This document shows positions 3,898 through 29,115 of a stretch of 37,254 nucleotides of DNA, piece after piece. Positions within the stretch are counted from its first letter, which is position 1; each line of letters starts with the position of its first letter. The position numbers and the translations under genes are program-made. Source of the DNA: Oscillospiraceae bacterium (GTDB taxonomy: Bacteria; Bacillota; Clostridia; Oscillospirales; Oscillospiraceae); contig JAFQUN010000125.1 in the NCBI GenBank assembly GCA_017408525.1, forward strand, positions 1 to 37,254. Reading direction: 5' to 3'. The notes under the pieces are model-generated. The model saw nothing but the letters and a program-made list of their open reading frames with translations. It made no database searches and had not been told where the DNA came from.

Positions 3898-4350
3898 TTA
3901 CTTGAGCATCAGGCGGATCTCTTCGCAAAATTCTGCCGCCGCGTCGCTTGTGCGCATAACAAGGAGCGCCGTGTCGTCACCGGCAAGGCTTCCCACCATA
4001 TAGCTGATGTTCATGCTGTCAAGCGCGGAACAAGCGGCGGATGCAAGCCCCGGCATCGTCTTGATGACGACGATATTCTGCGCAAAGTCGATGCTTACAA
4101 CGCTCTGGCGGAAGATGGCGCGCAGGCGGTCGGCAAAATTCAGCTTCGCTTTCTGGTCGGAAACAGCATACTTATAGCGTCCGCCTCCGGCAGGAGCCTT
4201 GACAAGGTGCATCTGTTTGATATCGCGCGAGATCGTCGCCTGTGTACTGACAACGCCGCTCGCTTTCAAACGCTCGAGAAGCTGCTCCTGTGTTTCAATA
4301 TCTTCGTTGTTTATGATCTCCAGGATCTTGCTCTGTCTGTCAATTTTCAT
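3898..4350 (-). CDS. argR: Arginine repressor ArgR/AhrC
   Basis: A 150-residue transcription regulator of arginine biosynthesis and catabolism, acting as a hexamer with L-arginine as co-repressor. The N-terminal winged helix (residues 1-75) contains the family stretch VSTQATISRDIKQMHLVK. The C-terminal arginine-binding and oligomerisation domain has the motif GSLAGDDTALLVMR, in which the GDDT pair contacts arginine. ATG 4350 has GGGAGG 8 nt upstream, inside the end of nadK, which it overlaps by 11 nt. No arginine genes are in this window, so its targets lie elsewhere. Confidence 0.96.
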   Translation of the reverse strand: MKIDRQSKILEIINNEDIETQEQLLERLKASGVVSTQATISRDIKQMHLVKAPAGGGRYKYAVSDQKAKLNFADRLRAIFRQSVVSIDFAQNIVVIKTMPGLASAACSALDSMNISYMVGSLAGDDTALLVMRTSDAAAEFCEEIRLMLK

Positions 4351-5218: not shown

Positions 5219-6030
5219 GCGTTTACCTGCTCCTTCAGCGTTTGATGCGAGCTTTCAACGAGCGCCTTTAGATCGAAACTGCGCTCATCACCCGCACCTT
5301 TTTGGATATATGCGAGGTATTCAATATTCCCCTCCGGTCCACGGATGGGAGAGAACGTCAAATCAAGAACTGTAAAGTTATTTTCCTTTGCATGAACAAG
5401 GAAGTTTTGAAGCACTTCTTCGTGGACAGCGGCATCGCGGACGACACCTTTTTTGCCGACTTTTTCGCGCCCCGCCTCAAACTGCGGCTTGACAAGACAC
5501 ACCGCGTGTGCGCCCTCTTTCAAAACAGCGCCGAGCGAGGGCAGGATGAGCGCAAGGGAAATAAACGAAACATCGACCGAGGCAAAGTCCAGCGGGTCAG
5601 CGATCTGCTCACGCGTGAGGTAACGGGCGTTCGTGCGCTCCATGCACACGACGCGCTCGTCACTTCGCAATTTCCACGCAAGCTGGTTGTAGCCGACATC
5701 GACGGCATAGACCTTCACCGCGCCGTTTTGCAGCATACAGTCGGTAAAGCCGCCCGTCGACGCACCGATATCACCGCATATGAATCCTTTCAGGTCGAGT
5801 GAAAAAGATGAGATCGCCTTTTCCAGCTTCAACCCGCCGCGGCTGACATATTGCAGCGTGCGTCCGTGGAGCTCGATCTGTGCATTGTTTGGAACATTTG
5901 TGCCCGGTTTGTCGACGCGCTGATTGTCAACAAAGACAGCACCACTCATGATAATGCTCTGTGCGCGGGTGCGGCTTTCGGCAAAACCGCGCTCGACAAG
6001 CAGCACGTCCAGTCTTGTTTTATTGCTCAT
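5215..6030 (-). CDS. tlyA: TlyA-family rRNA 2'-O-methyltransferase
   Basis: A 271-residue protein with an N-terminal S4 RNA-binding domain (RLDVLLVERGFAESRTRAQ, residues 5-23) and a Rossmann methyltransferase domain (GDIGASTGGFTDCMLQNGA, about residues 87-105, the SAM-binding loop). Relatives methylate ribose in 16S/23S rRNA; in Firmicutes this protein is often listed as a hemolysin-like YqxC. It overlaps dxs by 11 nt and nadK by 4 nt. Confidence 0.95.
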   Translation of the reverse strand: MSNKTRLDVLLVERGFAESRTRAQSIIMSGAVFVDNQRVDKPGTNVPNNAQIELHGRTLQYVSRGGLKLEKAISSFSLDLKGFICGDIGASTGGFTDCMLQNGAVKVYAVDVGYNQLAWKLRSDERVVCMERTNARYLTREQIADPLDFASVDVSFISLALILPSLGAVLKEGAHAVCLVKPQFEAGREKVGKKGVVRDAAVHEEVLQNFLVHAKENNFTVLDLTFSPIRGPEGNIEYLAYIQKGAGDERSFDLKALVESSHQTLKEQVNA

Positions 6031-7870
6031 GGCACACCTCCATCACGCAGCGCACAAACGCTTCGGCATCGAGTCCCGCCGCATGGCGAAGCTCACTGAC
6101 CGTGCCGTGGGCAACGATACTTTTTCCAAGATTTTTCAGAATAAGCCGTTTCGGGGCAAGACCGTTCTCCGCAAGAATACCGGCAATACGCTGTCCCACA
6201 CAGCCGGCGCCGATGCACTCCTCCGCGATAAGCAGGCGATGGCAGCGCCCGATCTCCATAGCCGTTTCCCGCGAAATAGGCGAGATCTGGTTGAGCTTCA
6301 CAACACCCGCGCGGACGCCGCTCTGCGCAAGAATATCTGACGCGCGCAAAAGCTCGTCGACCATCGTGCCGTAGCCCAAAAGTGTGATATCCTCCCCTCC
6401 GCGGAGGGTAACGACCGGCGCATCGGCACAGCAATCGCGGTACACGCCCTCTCCCCCGCGCGGATAGCGCACAGCAACAGGTCCGTCCATCTCCAGCACG
6501 GCGCGGCGCAGCATCACACGAAGCTCCGCAAAGCTTGCAGGGCAAAGGACCGTCATGTTGGGAATACCCGATAAAAACAGCGGATCAAAGCAGCCGTGGT
6601 GTGTCTCCCCGTCCGCACCGACGAGCCCCGCACGGTCAACAGCAAGCACAACGTGCAAATTGGAAAGGGCAGCATCGTGGATCAGCGAATCGTATGCGCG
6701 CTGCAAAAAACTGGAGTAAACGGCAAAAACCGGAACGATCCCCTGTGCTGCCATGCCCGCTGCCATCGTAACAGCGTGCGCCTCGGCAATGCCGACGTCA
6801 AAAAAGCGGTCGGGATAGGTCTTAGCAAAACGCGTAAGCATCGTACCATCCGTCATCGCCGCAGTGATGGCGCAAACACGCGCATCCTGCGCGGCGAGAG
6901 CACAGATCTCCTCTCCAAAAACAGAGGAAAAGCTTGCGCTCTCCCGCATTTCCACGCCGCGCTCGGGATCAAATACACCGACACCGTGATAGGACGAGGG
7001 TTCCTCCTCAGCCGGAGCGTAGCCTTTTCCCTTTACGGTGTGGACATGAACAACGACAGGTCTTGCAAGATCACGCGCCCAGCGCAGAACATGGGTGAGC
7101 TGATGGGTGTCGTGTCCGTCGACAGGTCCGAGGTAGGTAAAGCCCATATCCTCAAAAAGACTGCTGTTTGGGAAAAGCGCTTTTTTCAGGTTCGTTTTGA
7201 TACGGTGATTGAAACGGTAGATCTTCGCGCCAAAGTCCGTGTAACCGAGGATACGGCGGTAGGTCTTCTTAAAGCGAAAATACCCGGGTCTCGTTCGAAG
7301 AAGCGACAGATGCCCCGACACCGCGCCGACGTTCGATGCGATCGACATTCCATTGTCGTTCAAAATAACGATCAGCGGCTCACCGGAGCTGCCCGCATCG
7401 TTAAGCCCTTCATACGAAAGCCCGCCCGTAAGCGCACCGTCGCCAATAAGGGCAATGACACTGTAATCGTCTCCCCTGAGCGTCCGCGCGCGCGCCATAC
7501 CGAGCGCAACGGAAACGGAGTTGGACGCATGACCGGCGATAAATGCGTCGTGTTCGCTCTCGTGCGGTTTTGGAAAGCCGGAGATACCGCCAAACTTACG
7601 CAGCGTCGAAAAAAGCTCACGCCGTCCGGTAAGCGCCTTATGAACATAACACTGGTGTCCAACATCGAACACAAGGCGGTCGCGCGCAGTGTCAAACACG
7701 CGGTGTATGGCAACAGTCAGCTCCACCGCACCATGATTCGAGGCAAGGTGTCCGCCTGTTTTGGAGACGCTGTCAACGACAAATGCGCGCAGTTCCCCGC
7801 AGAGGAGGTCAAGCTGCGCGTGGTCGAGTTTTTTTACATCCTGCGGCGAGGAGATATTTTCAAGTATCAA
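6020..7870 (-). CDS. dxs: 1-deoxy-D-xylulose-5-phosphate synthase
   Basis: A thiamine-diphosphate enzyme that condenses pyruvate and glyceraldehyde-3-phosphate, the first step of the non-mevalonate isoprenoid pathway. 616 residues, full length. Visible motifs: HQCYVHKALTGR, the ThDP/Mg site GDGALTGGLSYEGLNDAG, and DRAGLVGADGETHHG in the pyrimidine domain, then a transketolase C-terminal domain. The start is TTG at 7870, with a G-rich Shine-Dalgarno (AGGGGGGAG) a few nucleotides upstream. It lies 11 nt after oapA, the known order in OLE-bearing Firmicutes. Confidence 0.97.
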   Translation of the reverse strand: MILENISSPQDVKKLDHAQLDLLCGELRAFVVDSVSKTGGHLASNHGAVELTVAIHRVFDTARDRLVFDVGHQCYVHKALTGRRELFSTLRKFGGISGFPKPHESEHDAFIAGHASNSVSVALGMARARTLRGDDYSVIALIGDGALTGGLSYEGLNDAGSSGEPLIVILNDNGMSIASNVGAVSGHLSLLRTRPGYFRFKKTYRRILGYTDFGAKIYRFNHRIKTNLKKALFPNSSLFEDMGFTYLGPVDGHDTHQLTHVLRWARDLARPVVVHVHTVKGKGYAPAEEEPSSYHGVGVFDPERGVEMRESASFSSVFGEEICALAAQDARVCAITAAMTDGTMLTRFAKTYPDRFFDVGIAEAHAVTMAAGMAAQGIVPVFAVYSSFLQRAYDSLIHDAALSNLHVVLAVDRAGLVGADGETHHGCFDPLFLSGIPNMTVLCPASFAELRVMLRRAVLEMDGPVAVRYPRGGEGVYRDCCADAPVVTLRGGEDITLLGYGTMVDELLRASDILAQSGVRAGVVKLNQISPISRETAMEIGRCHRLLIAEECIGAGCVGQRIAGILAENGLAPKRLILKNLGKSIVAHGTVSELRHAAGLDAEAFVRCVMEVCHEQ

Positions 7871-7881
7871 TACTCTCCCCC

Positions 7882-8436
7882 CTATTTGCCTCGACGGAAA
7901 AAGTGCATGATGCGCCCCGCGCGGAAAACGACCGCGGTGCAGCAGTCGATGGCGATATTCTTGCCGATCGCCTTACCGCCGATGGTAAGTCCCGAAATAA
8001 GCGCCGTTACAAATATTGAAAGAAGCACGGAGCTGACAGTAAGGCTTCTTTGCAGGTGCGCGACGATCACGGCGGCAGTCGTGCCGCTGACGATGCCGCA
8101 GATGTCACCGACAACATCGTTGCAGAAGTTCGAGACCTTGTCGCTGTTGCGCAGCAGGAAAAGCGCCTCCTCCGCACCCTTCTCACGGTGCGACGCCATC
8201 GAGTGGAACGGACGCGGATCCGCCGCAGTGACGGCGACGCCGATCACGTCAAACACGATACCAAGCAGCACAAACGACAGCAGCACGGCAAGTGCCGGAA
8301 AAAAGTCCGCTCCTTCCAACGCAACGGAGGAAAAAAGGCTCAATACCGCGGAAATAGCAACGGAAATGAAAAAAATACGAATGACCCAGCCTGCGCGCGA
8401 AACGCCGCTGCCCTTTCGCTTTTGCTTTTTTGCCAA
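7882..8436 (-). CDS. oapA: OapA, OLE RNA-associated membrane protein
   Basis: A 184-residue membrane protein with a very basic N-terminus (AKKQKRKGSG) and about four hydrophobic segments (roughly residues 15-40, 43-68, 105-125 and 130-155). The middle carries the family block FHSMASHREKGAEEAL and NSDKVSNFCNDVVGDICG. It resembles the membrane part of DUF21/CorB-CNNM proteins, which is why such genes are often labelled Mg/Co transporter-like. Its place directly between a ~640-nt structured RNA and dxs matches OapA, which binds OLE RNA and brings it to the membrane. Start TTG at 8436, with AGGGGGG 7 nt upstream. The identification rests on length, motifs and synteny; an unrelated DUF21-like protein is the alternative. 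Confidence 0.85.
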   Translation of the reverse strand: MAKKQKRKGSGVSRAGWVIRIFFISVAISAVLSLFSSVALEGADFFPALAVLLSFVLLGIVFDVIGVAVTAADPRPFHSMASHREKGAEEALFLLRNSDKVSNFCNDVVGDICGIVSGTTAAVIVAHLQRSLTVSSVLLSIFVTALISGLTIGGKAIGKNIAIDCCTAVVFRAGRIMHFFRRGK

Positions 8437-8509
8437 GGCTGTGCCCCCCTATTGGATCCGCGCCCGTGCAGAGCGCGGTTTTTCTCGATAAAAGCTAAAC
8501 AACGGCAGC

Positions 8510-9146
8510 AAAAAGGGTAAATCTTACGGCTTAGGTACGGGTTGGATTTCCCCGCGCCCTACCCCTCGTTGCCGATGGGGGCGGTTTCCCTTCAAAGAGC
8601 GCGTCGCGGCGTTACCGACCACGAGACCCGACTGCCACTTAGTCCGCACTGCAATCCCCCCTCTGCCCGAAACGACAGCCTAGGTGATTTCCACAGCAGT
8701 CAAACCGTCTCCTATCCTCTTTTGCAGACATGGTTTCAAGGAAATGGCGCACATTCCCTGGCCTGGGAGCTGTACGCTTGAGCTCTCCTATCCGCCATAC
8801 CCACGCAAGGCAGGCTACTCTGCACACAGCGTTACGGCGCAAAGCGCCGGGTAGCACCGCATTGCAGGTTAATCCACCTGTTTCGTACAAGGGTCGCTTG
8901 ACCCCGAGGGGAGTACGCCCCGCACAAGAACAGGTCTCCACGGAAACAGGGTCGGCTCCTCCATGCCATTGAAGGTCGCCCGGAGTCCGCAGGCTTGCAA
9001 AAAGCAAGCCTACCACCAGCACCCACCCCAAACTGGGCGTAAGAAGCAGGCACCAGAGGCTTCACCGTTGTGCCCTTTAACGGATTTTTAGGCCCGTCTT
9101 CAGAGAACGGCAGATCCGACTAGGATACTGCACCGCTGTTTAGCGT
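8510..9146 (-). ncRNA. OLE RNA (ornate large extremophilic RNA)
   Basis: A ~640-nt stretch with no credible coding frame but many local hairpins: 8991-9011 (8-bp stem, AAAAA loop), 8835-8849 (CGGCGC-AAA-GCGCCG), and C/G-rich pairs around 8570-8582 and 8901-8911. It starts just after a strong minus-strand promoter (9153-9181) and runs into oapA and dxs. Size, position upstream of oapA, and order OLE-oapA-dxs match the OLE RNA known from anaerobic and extremophilic Firmicutes, where it forms a membrane-bound ribonucleoprotein linked to stress tolerance. The 5' end is inferred from the -10 box. The 3' end is uncertain; 8458-8478 holds one more hairpin before the oapA Shine-Dalgarno. I could not match primary motifs from memory, so this rests on context and structure. 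Confidence 0.82.
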
Positions 9147-9152
9147 GCCCAT

Positions 9153-9181
9153 ATTATACAGCAGTGCCATCAAATATGCAA
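9153..9181 (-). promoter_or_regulatory. Promoter of OLE RNA and the oapA-recN operon
   Basis: On the minus strand TTGCAT (9181-9176), 17-nt spacer, perfect TATAAT (9158-9153). This predicts transcription from about 9146 leftwards. Between it and the glmS terminator (9182-9233) is AT-rich sequence in which I see nothing else. Confidence 0.75.
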
Positions 9182-9233
9182 GATATTCACTTGATATTCA
9201 GCATGAACGATTTGTAAATTTTTTAAAAGGCAT

Positions 9234-26802: not shown

Positions 26803-27675
26803 TTACATTTCCCTTGTTGCAAGTCTGTCTGCAAGTTCACAGAGAAAGTCTGCGCCGTCAATGCCATCGAGGGCACGCTTTGCCGCCTCGGTGCATGCAA
26901 GAATACGCGCGCGGCAGCCGTCCACACCGAAAAGATCGACAAAAGTGGTCTTTCCCTCCTCTTTATCTGAGCCGATGGGCTTCCCCAAAACCGTCTCACT
27001 CGCCGTCACATCAAGCACATCGTCGCGGATCTGGAAGGCAAGTCCGATCTGCGCAGCGTATTCGTGCGCGGCGCTAAAAAGCTTTTCATCCGCCTCGGCA
27101 GCGGCACAGCCAAGCTCCGCCGCGCCGCAGATCAGCGCGCCCGTTTTGAGCGCGTGCAGCTGCGTAAGTGCTGCTTCATCCGACGCACCCGAAATATCGA
27201 GTACCTGCCCCGCGACCATGCCGCGCGCGCCGCACGCACGCGCAAGGACCGCCGCCGCTCTTGCGCGCGAGGCATCGGAGCAGTCTGCGCCCGCAATGCT
27301 CGCAAACGCCTCCGCCTGCAAAGCATCGCCTGCAAGGACTGCCATCGTTTCACCGTAAACGATGTGGTTCGTCGGTCGTCCGCGCCGCAGATCATCATCA
27401 TCCATGCAGGGAAGATCGTCGTGGATGAGTGAGTAAGTATGCACCATCTCAACAGCTGCCGCGTAGGGCAGCGCACTGCGCCAGTCCACGCCGCCAAGGT
27501 TCGCAAATTCCAATGTAAGGATCGGGCGGATGCGCTTCCCGCCGGCAAGCAGGCTGTACCGCATCGAATCAAAAAGCGCGCTGTACGTCGGTTTGTCGGT
27601 AAAAAGTAAATCAAGATACTCCTCCACCGCCGCACGGTAGAGCGTCATGCGCTTTTCATACAGTTCGCTTTTCAT
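26803..27675 (-). CDS. ispA: Polyprenyl (farnesyl/geranyl) diphosphate synthase
   Basis: Joins isopentenyl diphosphate units to allylic diphosphates for quinone and undecaprenyl lipids. 290 residues. The first aspartate-rich motif is in DDLPCMDDDDLRRGRPTNH and the second is in QIRDDVLDVTAS; GGKRIRPIL near residue 50 binds diphosphate. Its ATG overlaps the xseB stop by 4 nt. It is last in the nusB-xseA-xseB-ispA run. In many relatives dxs comes next, but here dxs is 19 kb away. Confidence 0.95.
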   Translation of the reverse strand: MKSELYEKRMTLYRAAVEEYLDLLFTDKPTYSALFDSMRYSLLAGGKRIRPILTLEFANLGGVDWRSALPYAAAVEMVHTYSLIHDDLPCMDDDDLRRGRPTNHIVYGETMAVLAGDALQAEAFASIAGADCSDASRARAAAVLARACGARGMVAGQVLDISGASDEAALTQLHALKTGALICGAAELGCAAAEADEKLFSAAHEYAAQIGLAFQIRDDVLDVTASETVLGKPIGSDKEEGKTTFVDLFGVDGCRARILACTEAAKRALDGIDGADFLCELADRLATREM

Positions 27676-27905
27676 GCTTTTTCCTCGTCTGCAAATTCTG
27701 TTTCAACAGGCGCACCATCAGTGCCCTTCATCAGCTTCACGACTTTTTGCTCGGCTCTATCGAGCATCCGGCTGCAATCGGAAACGAGCTTCGTCCCCTC
27801 CTCAAAAAGCGAGAGTGACTCGGCAAGCTGCGCGTCGCCGCGCTCGAGGGAGCTGACGATCTTTTCGAGGCGCGCGATCTTCTCTTCAAATGTTTTCTCA
27901 GCCAT
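27672..27905 (-). CDS. xseB: Exodeoxyribonuclease VII small subunit
   Basis: A 77-residue helical protein with KTFEEKIARLEKIVSSLERGDAQL (broken here for length) near the start and SLSLFEEGTKLV, the XseB signature. It pairs with XseA to form the single-strand-specific exonuclease VII. It overlaps xseA by 8 nt and ispA by 4 nt, indicating coupled translation. Confidence 0.96.
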   Translation of the reverse strand: MAEKTFEEKIARLEKIVSSLERGDAQLAESLSLFEEGTKLVSDCSRMLDRAEQKVVKLMKGTDGAPVETEFADEEKA

Positions 27906-29115
27906 GCTTATCCTCCTCCATCACCTGCTCGACCGCACACAAAAGCGCGCCGCGCTCGAGCTGCACATTCACCTTCTCACCGACGCACACAGCACCGGCA
28001 TCTTTCAAAAGCGCACCGCTTTGCGTGCGCACCATCGAATACCCGCGTCCGAGCACTTTGAGCGGACTGATCGCGTCGAGCGTCGCCGCAAGCGCGACAA
28101 AGCGCTCACGCCGCTGTGACACGCGCTGCTGCGCGGCGGCGCACAGCTCCTTCTGCACATGGTCGAGCAGCTCCCGCTTGTCGTTTACGAACGCCATCGG
28201 GTCACGCAGAACGCGTTTTTCCGTGAGTACCTGCATCCTCTCGCGCAGAAGGGCAACGCGTTTTGTCTGCGCACGCGCCATACGCTCGTCCGCCGATTTG
28301 AGCGCGCGCAGAAGGTCCGCCATGTCGGGCACGGCAAGCTCCGCCGCGTTCGACGGTGTTGCCGCACGCACGTCTGCAACATAGTCGGCGATCGTCACAT
28401 CCGGCTCATGTCCGACGGCGGAGATGACCGGAAGCTCGGAGGCGAAGATCGCGCGCGCCACGCGCTCGTCGTTAAACGCCCAGAGATCTTCGATCGAACC
28501 ACCGCCGCGTCCTGTGATGATCACGTCGGCAATGTTCCACTTGTTCGCATAGTTCAGCGCGCCCACGATCTCCGGCGGCGCTTCGACACCCTGCACGCGT
28601 ACAGGAAGCAATATGACTTTTGCGATAGGATAGCGCTTTTTCAATATCCGGATCATGTCATGCACCGCCGCACCTGCGGATGAGGTGATGATAGCGATGC
28701 GCTGCGGATAGCGCGGGAGCGGCTTTTTGTGCGAGGGGTCGAAAAGTCCCTCGGCGGCGAGCTTCGCTTTAAGCTGCTCAAATGCAACGTGCAGATCACC
28801 GATACCGTCCGCTGTGAGCTGCGTACAGTAAAGCTGGTACGCGCCGTCGCGCGGAAAGACAGAGATGCGTCCCGATGCGATGACCTTCATCCCGTTTTCG
28901 GGGCGGAAGCGCAGCGAGGACGCGTTTCCGCGAAACATGACGCAGCGCATCGCCCCCTCACCGTCTTTAAGCGTAAAATAATGATGTCCTGAGGGGTAGA
29001 GCTTATAGTTTGATATCTCGCCGCGCACACAGATGTTCTGAAGCTGCGGCACACCGTCAAGCAGCGCTTTTATAAAATTGTTCGCTTCGCTCACGGTAAA
29101 GATCATCTGTTCCAA
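27898..29115 (-). CDS. xseA: Exodeoxyribonuclease VII large subunit
   Basis: Large subunit of exonuclease VII, 405 residues. N-terminal OB fold (FTVSEANNFIKALLDGVP; VRGEISNYKLYPSGHHYFTLKD) and a catalytic domain with the family block ITGRGGGSIEDLWAFNDE and SAVGHEPDVTIADYVAD. Start TTG 29115 is chosen because AGGAGGGAG is about 9 nt upstream; the internal ATG (29106) would be too far. Preceded by a hairpin at 29148-29176 between it and nusB. Confidence 0.96.
   Translation of the reverse strand: MEQMIFTVSEANNFIKALLDGVPQLQNICVRGEISNYKLYPSGHHYFTLKDGEGAMRCVMFRGNASSLRFRPENGMKVIASGRISVFPRDGAYQLYCTQLTADGIGDLHVAFEQLKAKLAAEGLFDPSHKKPLPRYPQRIAIITSSAGAAVHDMIRILKKRYPIAKVILLPVRVQGVEAPPEIVGALNYANKWNIADVIITGRGGGSIEDLWAFNDERVARAIFASELPVISAVGHEPDVTIADYVADVRAATPSNAAELAVPDMADLLRALKSADERMARAQTKRVALLRERMQVLTEKRVLRDPMAFVNDKRELLDHVQKELCAAAQQRVSQRRERFVALAATLDAISPLKVLGRGYSMVRTQSGALLKDAGAVCVGEKVNVQLERGALLCAVEQVMEEDKHG

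Follow-up and report, generated by a model that had tools for sequence, protein, structure and literature searches.

The OLE locus and its proteins

OLE RNA is among the largest structured and conserved bacterial RNAs whose function is still unsolved. The DNA considered here (the window) is the whole 37,254-nucleotide stretch of contig JAFQUN010000125.1 from an Oscillospiraceae bacterium, and on its minus strand the genes run OLE, oapA, dxs and then tlyA, nadK and argR. An earlier note, made from the sequence alone, had recognised an OLE RNA with its OapA protein there. In agreement with this, the Rfam covariance model RF01071 matches the minus strand at 8486..9152 over its entire length (model 1-616), with 416 bits against a gathering cut-off of 50 (E 5.1e-119), and this is the sole match above the Rfam gathering score in the window. 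Directly downstream, in the order that the note had given, lie the 184-residue open reading frame oapA (7882..8436, minus strand, TTG start) and dxs (6020..7870, minus strand; TIGR00204, 655.6 bits). The locus is a genuine member of the known OLE class, and its full-length RNA, of which the assembly holds one copy, is of the J5/6-insert form described below.

In a first sample of 40 genomes, which included that of the window, OLE was found in 15 and OapA in exactly those 15; oapA stood in tandem with OLE in 14 of the 15 loci, including the window's. Among the relatives, one genome (G029) has two oapA copies and one locus (L103) has the OLE 5′ motif approximately 3 kb upstream of oapA. The region could alternatively be an ordinary long leader regulating oapA-dxs and not a free RNA; it does lie directly upstream of oapA, and our scan of the window found no minus-strand terminator-like site between the two. 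However, the OLE fold is full length, and in genome G025 oapA is on a different contig from OLE (whose neighbour there is an mfd-like gene, identified by eye), and we regard such a leader as very improbable.

Directly 5′ of the model start is a promoter, TTGCAT-N17-TATAAT (9153..9181, minus strand). The note had called it strong; the site stands as described, but that word overstates it, as the -35 element has 3 of 6 consensus bases and a consensus scan does not pick it up as a promoter. Raw upstream rows show TTGnAT and TATAAT-like words at the same place in many OLE relatives. Our script also finds a similar pair ahead of 87 OLE copies; because it takes whichever pair scores best, this enrichment is partly built in. 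An imperfect inverted repeat (TGAATAT-N5-ATATTTG, 9171-9189) spans the -35, and column composition shows that ATATTC-like bases just after TTGn recur among OLE relatives; this is perhaps an operator.

The protein is OapA, as had been proposed, and not an ordinary CNNM transporter. Unlike the MpfA and CorB-CorC (CNNM) Mg2+ transporters it has no CBS or CorC_HlyC domain, its CNNM domain match (19.7 bits) falls under the cut-off of 28.4, and it carries a DxxxD motif (D107/D111) that is present in 14/14 aligned OapA sequences. The DxxxD motif and the lack of the CNNM proline are both given as OapA features in PMC11332333. The predicted structure has a CNNM-like fold. Searches of the PDB returned no usable match: copper ATPases (E 0.005) were all that the single sequence retrieved, and a potassium channel (0.49) was all that a profile retrieved. 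The closest named OapA relatives come from Oscillospiraceae and Clostridia metagenome-assembled genomes, with Oscillibacter, Papillibacter and Sporobacter more distant, which agrees with the clostridial origin suggested earlier.

An extra J5/6 hairpin and the two kink-turns

Published work describes two mutually exclusive kink-turns (k-turns) in OLE RNA: in k-turn 1a, J4a/5 is joined to J5/6 and some of P6; in k-turn 1b, seen by cryo-electron microscopy, it is joined to J6/7 (PMC12054373, PMC9723947, PMC12286853). By our own assignment, made in Rfam numbering, which agrees with the published U84-G wobble, k-turn 1a would use UUAA (140-143) and GG (144-145), and k-turn 1b GGAG (193-196). In the window (all minus strand) the J4a/5 bulge strand reads AAC-GGU-GA-AG (9060..9069; Rfam consensus AUC-GAU-GA-AG) and the k-turn 1b strand of J6/7 reads GUGGAGA (8933..8941). 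Between them lies an extra predicted J5/6 hairpin, GGCUUGC-UUUUU-GCAAGCC (8992..9010), which is not in the Rfam consensus, and the putative k-turn 1a strand, placed from the published numbering, has UGCGG instead of the consensus UUAAGG (8982..8991).

We compared OLE copies from 123 loci, of which 18 were unparsed and 105 parsed, leaving 98 distinct copies after removal of 7 repeats (separate parsings gave 87 copies for the promoter, 110 for the L4 count and 84 for the J5/6 insert listing). With the insert form defined by at least 8 additional bases, J5/6 has no insert in 50/98 copies and an insert in the other 48, the window among them. UAAG, searched across the whole of J5/6, occurs in 47/50 copies without the insert and in 2/48 with it, the two exceptions being L252, where it lies inside the insert, and L002, from another family and with a different insert. 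UGC-like bases take its place in the remaining 46/48. GGAG in J6/7 is kept in 95/98 copies (48/50 without and 47/48 with the insert), and C85 and G89-A90 of J4a/5 in all 98. Position 84 is U in 49/50 copies without the insert, and U in 20, C in 11, A in 10 and G in 7 of those with it. These counts indicate that both forms retain the k-turn 1b core, and that the insert form lacks the putative k-turn 1a strand, with no constraint on the base that would partner it; they are not independent, since OLE copies are related.

The inserts themselves are predicted hairpins: 34 of 36 distinct inserts give stems of at least 5 pairs. Their stem ends are of 23 kinds, and for 22/36 no more than 2% of shuffles do as well. 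At one locus (L099) the J5/6 insert exceeds 100 bases. Our search of passages from the OLE literature found no mention of a J5/6 hairpin, although a hairpin drawn and left unnamed could be there, and no publication linking 'OLE RNA' with Ruminococcaceae or Oscillospir-. By its sequence the window's OLE is of a structural form that we did not find described in those passages, and the hairpin would likely block one of the two rival folds proposed for the protein-binding site, namely k-turn 1a.

Other parts of the RNA resemble those of the model species. The L4 loop CUAAAAA (9082..9091, minus strand) would correspond to the A-A bridge, and the GGCC palindrome of L9.3 (8758..8765, minus strand) to the kissing loop, of the cryo-electron microscopy dimer (PMC12286853). 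CUAAAAA was counted in 109/110 copies, but by construction, as the parsing pattern demands UAAAAA, and we do not claim this as conservation. The P12.2/P13 region (8566..8619, minus strand) would match the OapB site of the model species (PMC9723947).

MpfA, OapC and the proposed particle

With PF03471 as the MpfA marker, no match over the cut-off was found in the 15 OLE-positive genomes of the first sample, against 19/25 of those lacking OLE (Fisher 1.4e-6; G026 has a sub-cut-off match). Across 250 genomes of the family, 21 have both, 60 OLE only, 163 MpfA only and 6 neither (Fisher 1.5e-32, kinship ignored), with the partial OLE matches of G214, G252 and G305 counted as present. The best OLE piece in these three covers only model 278-595; they may be copies in decay, pieces cut at contig ends, or variants. 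MpfA is single-copy in 20/21 genomes that have both, while 113/163 MpfA-only genomes have two or more copies. The pattern also holds in the 9 genera with both OLE states, where MpfA is present in 12/15 species lacking OLE and 11/31 species with it (stratified exact P 0.0022); G215, G275 and G299, which have neither, seem from list order to belong to the genera g47, g99 and g97, and without them the counts are 12/12 and 11/28 (P 3.3e-4). The anticorrelation of OLE with MpfA, and the lower MpfA copy number, have already been published across the Bacillota (PMC11332333); the within-family and within-genus pattern is our addition, and adds to the published case that OLE-OapA is concerned with metal ion handling. 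More genomes have both than have neither, as would be expected, though this is no proof, if MpfA was gained before OLE was lost.

For the protein partners we took the rpsL-linked L7Ae protein to be OapC and the infB-linked one to be YlxQ, the linkage being presumed and the names checked by neighbours only. The search covered 65 OLE-positive genomes: the 15 of the first sample and 50 of 80 fetched loci, 30 of these then seen to have a non-GAU bulge and 20 others. OapC was present in 34, absent in 19 and unjudged in the 12 that had no evaluable region upstream of rpsL; we assigned a weak match in G046 (E 3.9e-4) to YlxQ. Each of the 19 absent calls had approximately 1.5 kb or more upstream of rpsL, and in 13 an rpoC motif was found there (in G020, G056, G058, G063, G069 and G081 it was not). 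G001 and G062 are alike at the OapC locus and were both counted, as were G045 and G049. The earlier note had advised looking for oapB and oapC. In the window's own genome (G000, 78% complete) there is no ybxF/oapC match, and rpoC-rpsL-rpsG is assembled without one: at this locus (L258) no ybxF lies between the end of rpoC (1212) and the start of rpsL (2337), so OapC is absent at that place. OapB was not matched there either, but infA is missing from the assembly too (in a survey of 24 of the 40 genomes). Elsewhere the OapB family, confirmed through PDB 7k9b ('OLE-associated protein B', E 5.1e-18), lies beside infA in 21/21 infA loci examined (12 OLE-positive and 9 OLE-negative) and was found in 54/65 OLE-positive genomes.

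By J5/6 form, OapC is present in 14 and absent in 2 genomes without the insert, and present in 18 and absent in 17 with it (the other 14/65 lack form or state). A raw table of bulge type against OapC (22:3 versus 11:16, Fisher 5e-4) had suggested an association, which was lost when the tree was taken into account. The OapA tree, poorly resolved and with long branches, implies 6 changes of OapC state and 4 of bulge type. We report the pattern but claim no link between insert and OapC, because independent pairs give it no support. Nor can A84 be taken as a result of OapC loss, since the sisters G040, G043-G045, G048 and G049 have A84 and keep OapC.

We consider it rather probable that the OLE-oapA-dxs locus makes an RNA, likely a dimer, that holds OapA (a CNNM-like fold by prediction), that the two together likely stand in for the Mg2+ exporter MpfA as an RNA-protein particle, and that this RNA uses k-turn 1b only and works with no OapC. 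The dimer would scaffold OapA in the membrane and help to control divalent metal ions, as has been argued for the model species. In the insert form, J4a/5 would pair with J6/7 (k-turn 1b) and not with J5/6 (k-turn 1a); if J4a/5 cannot form k-turn 1a with J5/6, the switch proposed for the model species would be gone and the RNA would probably be fixed in the k-turn 1b fold. The particle might then work without OapC either because k-turn 1b folds unaided or because YlxQ sits on the k-turn. That OapA transports metal, that the RNA dimerises and that it lies at the membrane are here extrapolated from relatives. The scaffold and metal half of this proposal draws on published work and the MpfA pattern, while the k-turn and OapC half is deduced from sequence.

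Several points weigh against this. The MpfA marker is present in 21/81 OLE-positive genomes and 6/250 have neither, so that replacement of one by the other is not strict. OapC is needed in the model species, and position 84 of the window is A, a change that weakens OapC binding in the model RNA (both PMC9723947); bS21 favours k-turn 1a in the model species (PMC12054373). The J5/6 hairpin could also be neutral, with k-turn 1a forming through a non-standard core and OapC loss an unrelated drift. The 18/35 evaluable insert-form genomes that retain OapC, and the tree-aware test, which with 2 independent pairs gave no support for a link of bulge type with OapC, both count against our proposal and would fit neutrality, as would our reading of the weakly resolved OapA tree that the insert form may have arisen once or twice. 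However, 46/48 insert copies have something else in place of the putative 1n adenosine of k-turn 1a, and position 84 varies freely in that form, whereas the k-turn 1b strand hardly changes; we think neutrality less likely than not.

Alternatively, YlxQ may occupy the k-turn instead of OapC, so that the particle keeps an L7Ae-type protein and nothing is lost. The k-turn G-A core is retained in 98/98 copies, and YlxQ is matched in G000, where it lies within nusA-ylxR-ylxQ, and in all 19 OLE-positive genomes lacking OapC (the G041 match is partial). But YlxQ matches occur in 64/65 OLE-positive genomes (G031 and G051 match only at the OapC gene), and a protein found nearly everywhere says little by its presence; moreover, in H. 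halodurans YlxQ is unable to take the place of OapC (PMC11332333), which counts against our main proposal too. We hold this substitution, too, to be less likely than not.

Neighbouring genes and known systems

On the same strand as OLE, but approximately 17 kb or more from it, lie ispA (26806-27675), xseA (27901-29115) and the spoIIIA genes AA, AB, AE and AF (Pfam) at 31.3-34.9 kb; glmS adjoins OLE. Among the relatives ispA precedes oapA in 38/95 loci, many of which are cut short. The OLE gene block of the window also holds argR (3901-4350), and PMC12054373 cites unpublished evidence that ArgR binds OLE RNA.

The OLE of Halalkalibacterium halodurans, with its OapA, OapB and OapC, shares with the window the full model, the downstream oapA and dxs, the k-turn 1b strands, the L4 and L9.3 dimer loops in sequence and an OapA with DxxxD. 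The window differs in its extra J5/6 hairpin, in the replacement of UUAAGG and in the base at position 84, which is A; its genome lacks an OapC gene at the usual locus, and upstream of OLE comes glmS, with ispA and xseA approximately 17 kb off. Which of the two k-turns the OLE protein partners use is left open by published work (PMC12054373); a natural lineage that is seemingly unable to form one of them, and some members of which have no OapC, makes this question testable by comparison.

Two OLE variants have been described (PMC11332333), variant 1 mostly from TANB77 and variant 2 commonly from RF39. These are likewise linked to lineages of uncultured gut bacteria, and OapB and OapC are largely missing there too. 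We tentatively suggest that the OLE of Oscillospiraceae may be a third structural variant, in which a helix in J5/6 took over the place of the k-turn 1a switch and fixed the 1b dimer fold, making OapC dispensable and allowing its loss several times while OLE and OapA were kept. In variants 1 and 2, P7-P9 is reduced or lost, and often the P13 end as well; the OLE of the window instead covers the full model and has one helix more, at J5/6.
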